From assembly GCF_019880245.1 (NCBI RefSeq), contig NZ_CP082286.1, positions 310,001-374,000 of the forward strand: a stretch of 64,000 nt of DNA. The letters are read 5' to 3'. The DNA is from Halobaculum roseum. GTDB taxonomy: Archaea; Halobacteriota; Halobacteria; Halobacteriales; Haloferacaceae. Under the pieces are notes generated by a model, which saw nothing but the letters and a program-made list of their open reading frames with translations, had not been told where the DNA came from and did not search any database. Both the position numbers and the translations under genes were made by a program. The first letter of the stretch is position 1. Every line of letters starts with the position of its first letter. Positions 7,355 through 51,095 of the stretch are shown here, piece by piece.

Positions 7355-7472
7355 GCCCGCGCGGGCGGTGTCCTCGGCGTGACGGCTTTCGGATCGCGCG
7401 AGCACGCGCGGTCGGAGAAGCAGTCCCGTCCGTAGGCGGTACGGTTTTCCCCCAGCACGACAGCCACCCGGC

Positions 7473-8537
7473 ATGGAGACCGAGTCGCTCGTCGAGACGC
7501 TGGAGGCGGCGGGCCTGTCGCCGTACCAGGCGGAGGCGTACGTCGCGCTGCTGGAGCTGGGGACGGCGTCGGCGACCGACGTGGCGGAGGCGAGCGGCGT
7601 CCCGGCCCCTCGCATCTACGACGTGCTACGGACGCTGGAGGAACGGGAGTACATCGAGACGTACGAGGCCGGCTCGCTGCAGGCCCGGGCACACAGCCCG
7701 TCGGTCGTGTTGGAGGACCTCCGGAGCCGGGCCGACCGGCTGGAGGCGGCCGCCGAGGAGGTGGAACAGCGGTGGGAACAGCCCGAGTTGGAGGCCGGCG
7801 GCGCCAGCATCGTCACGCGCTTTCGGACCGTCATCGAGCGCGCGGAGGCGTTCATCGAGGACGCGAGCCACCAGATCCTGCTGTCGACGACGACCGCGAA
7901 CCTCCGACGGCTCGCGCCCGCGCTCCGCGACGCGACCGACCGGGGCGTCTCGGTGCGCGTGTCCGTCCACACCGACGACGCGAACGAGCGGCCGGACCCG
8001 AGCCTGTTCGAGGACATCTGCATGGAGGCGCGTCACCGTCCGCTTCCCGCGCCGTTCGTGGCGCTGGCCGACCGGCGACAGGCGTCGTTCGCCCACCACC
8101 CGGATTCGTACGACCGGTACGGCGTGCTCGTGAACGACCGGACGCACACGTACGTGTTCTACTGGTACTTCCTCACGACGCTGTGGGAGCCGTGGAAGTC
8201 CGTGTACGACGCGAGCGAGCCGGGGCTTCCCATCGAACATCTCGACGTTCGCCACCTCGTTCGCGACCTCCGGGAGCTGGGCTGGCGGGACGCCCCCATT
8301 CGCCTCCGCGTCGAAGGGTACGAGACCGACACGGGCGAGGAGTGCACCGTCGAGGGCACCGTCGTCGACGTGCGGGTCCCGTTCGCCTCGGAGGCCGACA
8401 CCGGCTTCGAGCTGGCCGGACAGGTCACGGTCGACCTCGACGTCGACGGCGAACACGTCAGCGTCGGCGGGTGGGGCGCGATCGTCGAGGACGTCGAGGG
8501 AACGAGACTCACGATCGTCGACGCGCCGATCGAGTGA
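7473..8537 (+). CDS. TrmB-family transcriptional regulator with effector domain
   Basis: A 354-residue protein. Residues 1-75 form a winged helix-turn-helix ('GLSPYQAEAYVALLELGTASATDVAEASGVPAPRIYDVLRTLEEREYIE') typical of TrmB. A coiled segment ('SRADRLEAAAEEVEQRWEQPE') is followed by a PLD-like region with 'ILLSTTTANLRRLAPALRDATDRGVSVRVSV' and a C-terminal beta-rich domain resembling the TrmB sugar-binding part. TrmB proteins control sugar transport and glycolytic genes in archaea. It sits directly upstream of the ABC importer and is the obvious candidate regulator of the cluster. The inducer is unknown. Confidence 0.85.
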   Translation: METESLVETLEAAGLSPYQAEAYVALLELGTASATDVAEASGVPAPRIYDVLRTLEEREYIETYEAGSLQARAHSPSVVLEDLRSRADRLEAAAEEVEQRWEQPELEAGGASIVTRFRTVIERAEAFIEDASHQILLSTTTANLRRLAPALRDATDRGVSVRVSVHTDDANERPDPSLFEDICMEARHRPLPAPFVALADRRQASFAHHPDSYDRYGVLVNDRTHTYVFYWYFLTTLWEPWKSVYDASEPGLPIEHLDVRHLVRDLRELGWRDAPIRLRVEGYETDTGEECTVEGTVVDVRVPFASEADTGFELAGQVTVDLDVDGEHVSVGGWGAIVEDVEGTRLTIVDAPIE

Positions 8538-36248: not shown

Positions 36249-36420
36249 TGTCGGGGGGACGGACGGGAGGAGTAAAGCCGTTGTCCGATCGGCGAGACAG
36301 GGCGTCCCACGTCGGAGACGGCTGACTCTCGACGCGTGGGATCCCCTGGCGGATACTCGTCCGAATGGAAAGCCCTTTATCTGTAACCGGGATACATCGC
36401 AATGCGTACTGACGCACGAT

Positions 36421-36505
36421 GCGTGGGTAGCCAAGCCAGGCCAACGGCGCAGCGTTGAGGGCGCTGTCCTGTAGAGGTCCGCCGGTTCAAATCCGGTCCC
36501 ACGCA
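36421..36505 (+). tRNA. tRNA-Leu (anticodon GAG)
   Basis: An 85-base class II tRNA. The acceptor stem pairs GCGTGGG (36421-36427) with CCCACGC (36498-36504) and has discriminator A. The D-arm is followed by anticodon stem CAGCG/CGCTG and loop TTGAGGG, giving anticodon GAG, which reads CUC/CUU. A long variable arm and a T-arm CCGG-TTCAAAT-CCGG complete it. CCA is not encoded. Upstream TTTAT (about 36375-36379) may be the promoter. The 3' end is exactly duplicated 79 bases downstream. Confidence 0.95.
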
Positions 36506-36508
36506 TCT
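36484..36508 (+). repeat. tRNA-Leu 3' end, first copy of a 25-bp direct repeat (att-like)
   Basis: The T-arm, acceptor 3' strand and three flanking bases of tRNA-Leu form a 25-base sequence that recurs without mismatch at 36563-36587. Direct repeats of a tRNA 3' end are the usual footprint of tyrosine-integrase elements. Confidence 0.75.
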
Positions 36509-36562
36509 AACGGATGCGGACACGAGCGGATTTGAAGCAGGAGGCGCGGAACGCGCGACCGA

Positions 36563-36587
36563 GGTTCAAATCCGGTCCCACGCATCT
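36563..36587 (+). repeat. Displaced copy of tRNA-Leu 3' end (att-like scar)
   Basis: Perfect 25-base duplicate of 36484-36508, starting GGTTCAAATCCGG and ending CACGCATCT. The 54 bases between the copies contain no gene, so any element between them has been lost, or the duplicate marks the outer edge of an excised element. No integrase gene is seen nearby. Confidence 0.75.
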
Positions 36588-36771
36588 CACGTGGTGCGGA
36601 ACGCACCACAGGATGCAGGTGCTGTGCGCCCCTCGGGGCGCCCTACAGACAGCACCCACGCACAATCCTTCCGAACGCTACACCTCCACCGACGGGTGTC
36701 TCTCCGGATGTCGATCGTCTCGGAATCCCAGAGAGTAACGGTTTTCCGGGGAGCAACCGCCCTCACCTGGT

Positions 36772-49595: not shown

Positions 49596-51095
49596 CTACC
49601 CGTCGCCGACCGCCGGGAGCGCCTTCCGTCCGTACCGGATCACGCCCTCCCGTTCGTAGATCCGCCTGAACACGGCGCGAACGGGGTCGCCCGCCGCGAC
49701 CGACTCGGGGTCGGCGTCCGCGACCTGCATGGGCACGCTCGCGGCCGCCCCCTCGCGCTCGAACCGGACGATCGCGACCGCGTAGTCGCCGCCCCGCTCG
49801 GCCTGGCGGGCGAACTCGGGGGGCGCCCCGTCGGGGGAGACGCCGGTCACGGTCTCGACGGTACCCTCCGAGGGAAGCCCCACCGACTCGTAGTCGACCA
49901 GATCATGACAGTCCGGACACGCGCCCTCCGGCGGGAACGCGAGCCCGCCGCAGTCGGGACAGCGACCCGCCCGGAGGCGATAGCGCGCGGGGATCGACCG
50001 TCGCCACGTCGGCACCGACACCGCCGCGCCGCCGCCCGCCGGCGGCTCGTCGCTCGCGATCTCGCCGCGGCGTCGCAGCGCCGCCGCGTACGACAGCTCA
50101 CGGTCGGCGTCGAGGTCGCCCTCGACGGGCGCGAGCCCGTCGACGAGGAGCGCGTCTGCGCCGGCGCCGCTGCCCCAGCCGACGACGAGCGTCCGGGTCG
50201 CGCCCGCGCGAAGCGCCGCAGTCAGGCCGAGGAGCGGCCCGGCCGCGCCCGTGTCGCCGAGCGTGTCCACGGGCGTCGAGACCGCGTCGGCGTCCAGTCC
50301 GACGGACCGGGCCGCCCGCGCGGGGAGGTCGCCGTCGGGTGCGGTCACCGCGAACGCAGCGGCCTCCTCGGGGGCGAACGCGTCCGCGTCGTCCCCCAGC
50401 AGGTCGACGGCCGCGCGGATCGGGCGGGTGAACGCCTTGCGGTCGTAGGTGGTGACACCCAGTCCCTCGACGCCGTCGTCGGCGTCGTCGGCGTCCCCCG
50501 CGCGCCGGAAGCGGGTTCCGGGGTAGTCGGCCGCGACCTCCGCGTCGCCGACGAGGCCCGCGCCGGACCCCGAGTCGGGACCCAACACGACCGCCGCCGC
50601 GCCCGCGCCGGCGGCGTGGCCCTCGGGGGCGTTCGGCGCCGCACGCGGCGCGTCGGCGGCGACGACGAGCGCCGGGAGCGCGCCGGCGTCGCGGGCGGCC
50701 CGCAACGCCCGCGTTCCCGCGCGCGTGCTCCGGCCGACGTAGTGGGTTCGCGCGTCGCCGGGGGCGCCGAGGGCGGCACCGAGGCGGGGGAGGAGGTCCT
50801 CCTCCTCCAGGGGCGGCGTGGTCGTCGCGAACGCGAGCCCCGCGAGGTCGCCGGCGTCGACCCCGGCGGCAGCGAGCGCGCGCTCGCCGGCCGCAACGCT
50901 CATCGTGAGCGCGTCCTCGTCGGGTCCCGGGACGGCGACGGCGTCGATTCCGCGGGCCCGCGAGCGACCCCACGCCTCGGCGACCGCCTCGCGGGGGAGC
51001 CGGGCGGACGGCGCGTAGACGCCCGCGCCGAGGATCCGGGCGTCGGCGTCGAGTCGATCGGCGGGTTCCCCCGGACCCGGTTCGGGCGCGCTCAC
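49596..51095 (-). CDS. HMG-CoA-synthase-like thiolase-fold protein fused to DUF35 OB/zinc domain; catalytic Cys missing
   Basis: A 499-residue fusion. Residues 15-360 follow the archaeal HMG-CoA synthase fold ('ILGAGVYAPSARLPREAV', 'LAFATTTPPLEEEDLLPRLGAAL', 'STPVDTLGDTGAAGPLLGLTAAL'). Where HMG-CoA synthase has its Cys nucleophile (FACKAGTAAL-like), this protein has 'GRSTRAGTRAL' (residues 121-131). From about residue 370 comes a DUF35 module with zinc pairs 'CPDCGG' and 'CPDCHD' and an OB fold. Related thiolase/HMGCS/DUF35 complexes channel acetoacetyl-CoA. Start is GTG 51093-51095, overlapping the thiolase stop by four bases. It may be a scaffold rather than an enzyme. Confidence 0.75.
   Translation of the reverse strand: MSAPEPGPGEPADRLDADARILGAGVYAPSARLPREAVAEAWGRSRARGIDAVAVPGPDEDALTMSVAAGERALAAAGVDAGDLAGLAFATTTPPLEEEDLLPRLGAALGAPGDARTHYVGRSTRAGTRALRAARDAGALPALVVAADAPRAAPNAPEGHAAGAGAAAVVLGPDSGSGAGLVGDAEVAADYPGTRFRRAGDADDADDGVEGLGVTTYDRKAFTRPIRAAVDLLGDDADAFAPEEAAAFAVTAPDGDLPARAARSVGLDADAVSTPVDTLGDTGAAGPLLGLTAALRAGATRTLVVGWGSGAGADALLVDGLAPVEGDLDADRELSYAAALRRRGEIASDEPPAGGGAAVSVPTWRRSIPARYRLRAGRCPDCGGLAFPPEGACPDCHDLVDYESVGLPSEGTVETVTGVSPDGAPPEFARQAERGGDYAVAIVRFEREGAAASVPMQVADADPESVAAGDPVRAVFRRIYEREGVIRYGRKALPAVGDG

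Follow-up and report, generated by a model that had tools for sequence, protein, structure and literature searches.

What does it mean when the 3' end of a tRNA gene is repeated a few dozen bases downstream, with no integrase gene in between? The question is raised by the tRNA-Leu(GAG) gene in the window analysed here, a stretch of 64,000 nucleotides of Halobaculum roseum (genome G000, contig C1, 310001-374000). Haloarchaeal integrative elements and proviruses insert at the 3' ends of tRNA genes, leave the tRNA whole and have part of it repeated at their far end, according to the accessible parts of PMC7921747 and PMC7230728. The first-pass annotation of the window read the repeat in these terms, as the integration scar of an element that had excised or collapsed and as the mark of an active attachment site. 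The repeat is one member of a widespread haloarchaeal family of tRNA-linked units, not a lone scar.

The repeat at tRNA-Leu(GAG) and its distribution in relatives

The target tRNA-Leu(GAG) gene is located on the plus strand at 36420-36507 according to ARAGORN and at 36421-36505 according to the Rfam RF00005 match (44 bits), which places N73 at 36505. The direct repeat covers 29 nt (36484-36512 and 36563-36591) with 97% identity, the first 25 nt being identical. The two copies start 79 bp apart and 54 nt separate the 25-nt copies, as was originally annotated. The first copy of the last 22 nt of the tRNA (R1, GG plus T54-N73) occupies 36484-36505, and the exact repeat extends to 36508. R1 and all the features that follow are on the plus strand. 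The unit body (36506-36526) begins with a resemblance to the native 3' flank (a small GCATC..GGATGC hairpin) and continues as a short stretch to an inverted arm. This arm, I (36527-36536, CGGATTTGAA), repeats the T-loop of the tRNA, with part of its 3' stem, in inverted orientation. It is followed by the core (36537-36562, GCAGGAGGCGCGGAACGCGCGACCGA), a type A hairpin whose internal loop contains GA on both strands, and by the second copy of GG plus T54-N73 (R2, 36563-36584), which is identical over the 22 nt, and over 25 nt up to 36587. With DNA parameters, the plus strand of 36527-36574 folds as I-core-R, and the z value of 36526-36574 is -6.3 against dinucleotide shuffles. The 54 nt contain no integrase gene or remains of one, and the ORFs that cross them are mechanical reading frames. 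To regard them as a mere non-coding gap is nevertheless insufficient, since they hold the inverted T-loop copy and the hairpin.

A further hairpin is located 3' of the tRNA at 36612-36666. It ends in CACCCACGCACAAT, repeats 8 nt of the acceptor 3' strand and is distinct from the unit, being evolutionarily far more stable. In 23 of the 30 relatives' loci inspected, CACCCACGCAnAA is found at most 220 nt from tRNA-Leu(GAG), with a stem that varies on both sides.

All 60 genomes searched match the tRNA-bearing query. Within the genus, the unit is present in five of the 11 genomes (G000, G002, G006, G007 and G010, the state of the last being taken from the alignment of the locus search only) and absent in six (G001, G003, G004, G005, G008 and G009). 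Outside the genus, a decayed unit is found in G028 and none in G025. The empty site is represented by G009: when one repeat copy is removed from the window, 760 of 782 aligned bases match. Because G009 retains a 31-nt flank resembling the one behind the second R of G000, the sequences point to loss as the likely cause of absence in G009.

No large element was seen at tRNA-Leu(GAG) in the 11 genus genomes, and the gene can hardly be called an active attachment site on these grounds; it is a plausible viral target, 58 nt of it being present in the virus HSTV-2. The comparison of relatives is two-sided, as integrated elements are absent in the genus, yet the short arrangement is polymorphic. Of the scar interpretation, what stands is a presence/absence insertion at the tRNA 3' end, whereas the remnant of a collapsed integrative element is not supported. 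The arrangement is tentatively read, with confidence somewhat short of even, as a 79-bp non-coding and non-autonomous insertion unit, on which a trans-acting tyrosine recombinase would operate at G53|T54 with I-core-R as attachment site.

Spread, anatomy and turnover of the units

Downstream R copies (the tRNA's own last 22 nt at a match of at least 17/22, within 700 bp) are widespread. They are found behind 22 of 43 main-contig tRNA genes in G000, 18 of 43 in G009 and 16 of 41 in G006, against none upstream in any of the three genomes. Permuted tRNA ends give a mean of 2.4-2.45 copies in this three-genome survey (2.4 in G000), and the inverted orientation of the ends gives 3, 1 and 1 copies in G000, G009 and G006. 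A chance repeat is ruled out by the upstream and permutation controls. The survey left out two tRNAs of G006, the secondary contigs of G000 (C2, C4) and G009 (C2) and a cluster of G009 at 722-724 kb. Leu(TAG) and Gly(CCC) of G000 also have units, displaced by elements of 6.1 kb and 3.4 kb, respectively, and are counted outside the 22/43. Inverted T-loop pairs, when searched in G000, occur at three sites, each behind a different tRNA.

Of 293 genomes of the order, 88 contain the strict pattern of the type A core, and the reversed-pattern control matches none. A phylum sample of 294 genomes contains it in 16, every one of which is among the 53 genomes of the same order; the other 241 genomes are without it. 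A looser pattern, with any core between inverted T-loops, matches 24 of 30 genomes of the taxonomic family of G000 and 19 of 28 genomes of family f17, which had no type A match in the order-wide search; both controls are zero. Most type A modules (72 of 83, from 80 named loci) are no more than 700 bp away from a tRNA 3' end, of which they carry a terminal copy (at least 17/22), and the remaining 11 include weaker copies and modules near the locus edge. Across 92 modules, most distances fall in the range 40-140 nt, and the units mostly measure 70-210 bp.

The units share one order: R, a short and variable body, I, the hairpin core and R. R is a copy of T54-N73 of the tRNA that it trails, and I is an inverted copy, about 12 nt long, of the T-loop half-site of the same tRNA. 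Edge statistics were obtained from 54 of 78 units of the three genomes (R at least 20/22 and I at least 8/11; 69 of the 78 have I at least 8/11). In these 54 units, the identity of R is 0.94-1.0 at each position from T54 to N73 and falls to the control level upstream of position 52. The match past N73 mostly extends 0-3 nt, three units reaching 24, 50 and 60. I matches the inverted tRNA over 10 nt at 0.85-1.0, then at 0.65, 0.52 and 0.52, and then at background. A decayed full-length inverted tRNA end is unsupported as the general source of I, whose length is defined at 10-13 nt while R is intact. Both I and R track the T-loop variant of the host tRNA, as TTCGAAT at Lys(TTT), TTCAATT at Gly(CCC) and TTCAACT at Lys(CTT). 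Units form tandem arrays. Several core types exist and the same types recur behind different tRNAs; the G000 cores at Gly(TCC), Gly(GCC) and Met(CAT) are 93-95% alike, whereas their tRNA ends match only at 10-17/20.

The content of the loci changes rapidly between species. Between G000 and G009 (median upstream identity 0.965), the unit number differs at 15 of 40 orthologous tRNA loci, is equal and non-zero at 7 and is zero at 18. Between G000 and G006 (median upstream identity 0.882), the corresponding counts are 20, 4 and 12 of 36 loci. The Leu(GAG) difference runs from R to R, the differences at Lys(CTT) and Tyr consist of a stretch bounded by I and I, and at Gly(GCC) body and flank are the same with another core between I and R. 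These edges suggest that I and R both act as exchange points, with a contribution of ordinary homology. At Ser(GGA), similar pieces stand in a different combination. The body at Gly(TCC) is chimaeric with a joint inside GAACGAAGTGAG, for which ordinary short homology suffices, and this counts against insertion by a recombinase.

The last two loci are in line with an unlikely alternative, namely replication slippage, fold-back template switching and ectopic gene conversion via shared T-loops and local palindromes, with no dedicated enzyme. Jumping nascent strands would then make both the direct and the inverted copies of tRNA ends and spread cores between tRNAs. Palindromes in the bodies (e.g. 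locus L046) and exact tandem copies (a 119-bp pair in G006 and a 99-bp pair in locus L063) also speak for such events. However, R has the same edges, T54 and N73, behind different tRNAs, and the core types are conserved across genera, both of which are at odds with template switching.

The core hairpin was analysed in 35 of the 122 distinct type A sequences, which have one length (43 nt). In this set, 25 cells changed on both sides, compared with 5.9 +/- 1.7 after shuffling, all of them in the terminal stem. Pairing is found in 99.2% of the cells of the type A structure and in 27-44% when the partners are slid, the outer arms and flanking GA steps being largely fixed by the search pattern and thus uninformative on structure. 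Quasi-palindrome correction could imitate covariation, which counts in favour of template switching. On the other hand, the mismatched GA steps by the covarying stem are invariant, in part because the search pattern fixes them, and are not corrected away. Three further observations count against insertion through a folded site. The cores alone are not better folded than dinucleotide shuffles (median z -0.38, 180 cores). At positions where R departs from the tRNA, I agrees with the tRNA in 15 cases and with R in two, a count that does not support compensatory upkeep of the I:R pairing. The I:R mismatches (G.T 23, A.C 15, other 34) have no clear strand bias. The hairpin core looks constrained, and the I:R pairing is seemingly without compensatory upkeep.

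The strand on which the core folds bears on whether the unit is a structured RNA, transcribed with the tRNA, whose hairpin would serve in 3' processing, termination or regulation, with mobility being secondary. The mismatches of the cores on the sense strand are G.T in 97 cases against A.C in 54 and purine-purine in 794 against pyrimidine-pyrimidine in 43, and the tRNA-sense strand is the better folded one in 162 of 180 cores, although these counts are not independent by descent and the cores are purine-rich on that strand. The G-T type pairs of the covarying stem all occur as such on the sense strand. An RNA role is nonetheless quite improbable: the units are patchy and turn over fast between sister species, T-rich tracts often stand directly behind the tRNA and ahead of the unit, Rfam gives no family of weight besides tRNA, and the shuffles fold as well as the cores do.

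Relation to integrase elements and viruses

The units could also be collapsed remnants of an integrative element or provirus, in which the body would be the P' arm, I-core would be the P arm and contain the integrase binding sites, and the intervening genes would have been deleted. This is judged rather unlikely. R is a tRNA 3'-end repeat of the kind found at integrated elements, but the extent of the overlap is different. The units share about 22 nt with the tRNA (exactly 22 in 24 of 54), whereas the overlap is 45 nt in the Gly(CCC) element, 56 nt in the Leu(TAG) element and 58 nt between HSTV-2 and tRNA-Leu(GAG). This comparison covers two elements and one virus; other element families may overlap less. 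The Gly(CCC) element of G000 does contain a stretch of inverted T-loop sequence, GGGAATTGA, which is located some 60 nt past the tRNA. However, the 3.4-kb Gly(CCC) and 6.1-kb Leu(TAG) elements of G000 lie between the tRNA and a separate, intact unit, and their attR are without I-core. When the Gly(CCC) element is removed in silico, 682 of 728 aligned positions agree with G009, which has the unit without the element. For Leu(TAG), a junction of the tRNA with the sequence past the last copy agrees with G009 at 776 of 785 positions without gaps, and both element and unit are absent there. Given the different overlap, the coexistence of elements with units and the attR without I-core, the units appear, as far as these sequences go, not to be simply collapsed forms of the measured integrase elements. 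The conserved inner anatomy of units behind many tRNAs in many genera likewise argues against a remnant.

In locus L233, the order is tRNA, about 3 kb, R, body, I-core and R. The 3-kb stretch closes at its own R ahead of the unit, so that another R and a body come before the I-core, and the unit was rejected as the end of a gene-bearing element. Partial tRNAs of Haloferax gibbonsii that stand beside full ones are placed next to true integrated elements in the available part of PMC7921747, which is in keeping with remnants.

The Gly(CCC) element (G000:C1:1500239-1503640, L085) also shows a replaced anticodon-stem part of the tRNA, which reads CAAAGCCTTCCCAAGGCTTT in G000 and CATTAGCTTCCCAAGCTAAT in G009. 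The displaced G009-like sequence is found at the attR of the element, which swapped in its own tRNA 3' half.

A viral counterpart of the target is carried by HSTV-2 (L209 2997-3075; KC117376.1 about 49617-49695), where the 58 nt of tRNA-Leu(GAG) stand about 40 bp upstream of the XerCD gene. This stretch is likely the attP, and the same match is present in seven further Halorubrum and Haloarcula virus records. Such a tRNA sequence beside an integrase gene favours the remnant explanation, but the scar of an HSTV-2-like virus was discarded, as the site in the virus has 58 nt in common with the tRNA and is without I-core.

Exact modules are absent from IMG/VR (0 matches), a result that also weighs against the remnant explanation. 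The shorter right-half pattern returned three stretches there, none of them a module; two lie within tRNA-Pro of tRNA-rich contigs and one is without a tRNA. With a 96-nt unit query, the 20 plasmid records listed contain only weak matches (at most 32% of the query), and among phages only the site of the HSTV-2 group was matched. No circular unit form and no virus or plasmid donor was found in the IMG/VR, plasmid and phage searches, which counts against insertion by a recombinase.

Possible mechanism and comparison with known systems

In the favoured reading, a putative tyrosine recombinase supplied in trans would join the unit to the tRNA gene at G53|T54. The inserted unit would provide a new T54-N73 and restore the tRNA, and the old T54-N73, displaced downstream, would become the next R. 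I-core-R would be the attachment site, probably recognised when folded on one strand. Recombination between R copies would remove units, and exchange between I copies would reshuffle the arrays. Insertion at G53|T54 fits the edge data; it predicts a native last flank and a single orientation of the modules, and both are seen: at Val(GAC), the last flank is the native one when G000 is compared with G009, and the modules of the loci inspected hold one orientation relative to the tRNA. On the other hand, a plain crossover fails to account for a moved core that gains the arms of its new tRNA, and the 11 Phage_integrase matches in G000 include none coded in a unit; both facts count against such insertion. 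The core may gain arms matching the new tRNA via exchange through shared T-loop sequence.

Integron arrays consist of cassettes behind attI, with attC sites recombined by IntI. The attC is an imperfect inverted repeat of conserved structure, with a variable tip and the arm consensus GTTRRRY. The proposed layout would resemble that of integron cassettes, with the tRNA T-loop in the place of attI. The units are likewise arranged in direct tandem order behind a fixed site. Their ends resemble attC, in anatomy only, as inverted-repeat sites in which outer arms, internal loop, inner stem and variable tip can be told apart. The junction is also placed alike, adjoining G|TT on the inner side of the right arm, where the G of I-core is followed by the TT of the next R. 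Unlike in integrons, the fixed site is a tRNA gene, gene cassettes are absent and no IntI is coded in the unit; the arm is GTTCRAAT-like or the host tRNA's own variant and differs with each tRNA, instead of following GTTRRRY. A full analogy, in which tRNA genes would serve as attI, a trans tyrosine recombinase would insert miniature cassettes with attC-like ends at G53|T54 and live, reshuffling arrays would stand behind about half of the tRNA genes, is doubtful.

Phages of the CTX type have a folded single-stranded attP that is used by Xer recombinases. The units are similar in having two inverted site copies split by a short hairpin-forming stretch. They differ in targeting the tRNA T-loop and not dif, and in being without phage genes; as regards strands, only the asymmetry of the cores is seen.

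With the haloarchaeal elements that target tRNA genes (XerC/D-type integrase; Haloferax gibbonsii LR2-5, proviruses of the HF1 group and HSTV-2), the units share insertion at the tRNA 3' end, the far-end repeat, the whole tRNA and the empty site in a relative. They differ from them in having no genes, in measuring mostly 70-210 bp, in the overlap of about 22 nt instead of 45-58 and in the conserved I-core at the right end, present in many copies behind many tRNAs per genome. The small mobile repeats and MITEs of Haloquadratum walsbyi are also short, non-coding and multicopy with terminal inverted repeats. In the accessible part of PMC3119063 the small mobile repeats are listed as causing no target duplication, and neither kind is described as tRNA-linked, whereas the units are tRNA-linked and carry the R copy.

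Even if insertion at tRNA ends is well known, the I-core form is perhaps not. A full-text search that mostly excluded subscription papers turned up no description of the I-core anatomy, of its covariation or of its genome-wide spread, so that its unpublished status is unproven. The unit family is annotated at most as partial tRNAs, and PMC7921747 (available part) mentions partial tRNAs of Haloferax gibbonsii that directly adjoin full ones. If the units enter and leave at G53|T54, many tRNA genes of Halobacteria would repeatedly receive replacement 3' ends from a hidden non-coding mobile family. This would account for partial tRNAs beside full ones, advise caution in taking each tRNA-end repeat for an island scar and offer a natural system for tests of single-strand site-specific recombination in archaea. 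The fast turnover of units between sister species could double as a strain marker.

Two minor observations concern the arrangement of tRNA genes. In G040 (L140 7215-8200), tRNA-Asp is duplicated together with its unit at a spacing of 832 bp, with one ORF between the copies (7446-7943), presumably resembling a group I intron-associated PD-(D/E)XK endonuclease. A dense tRNA gene cluster on a secondary contig (G000:C2:103386-105421, L138) is reminiscent of viral tRNA arrays, and the cluster at 722-724 kb of the G009 main contig is similar to it.
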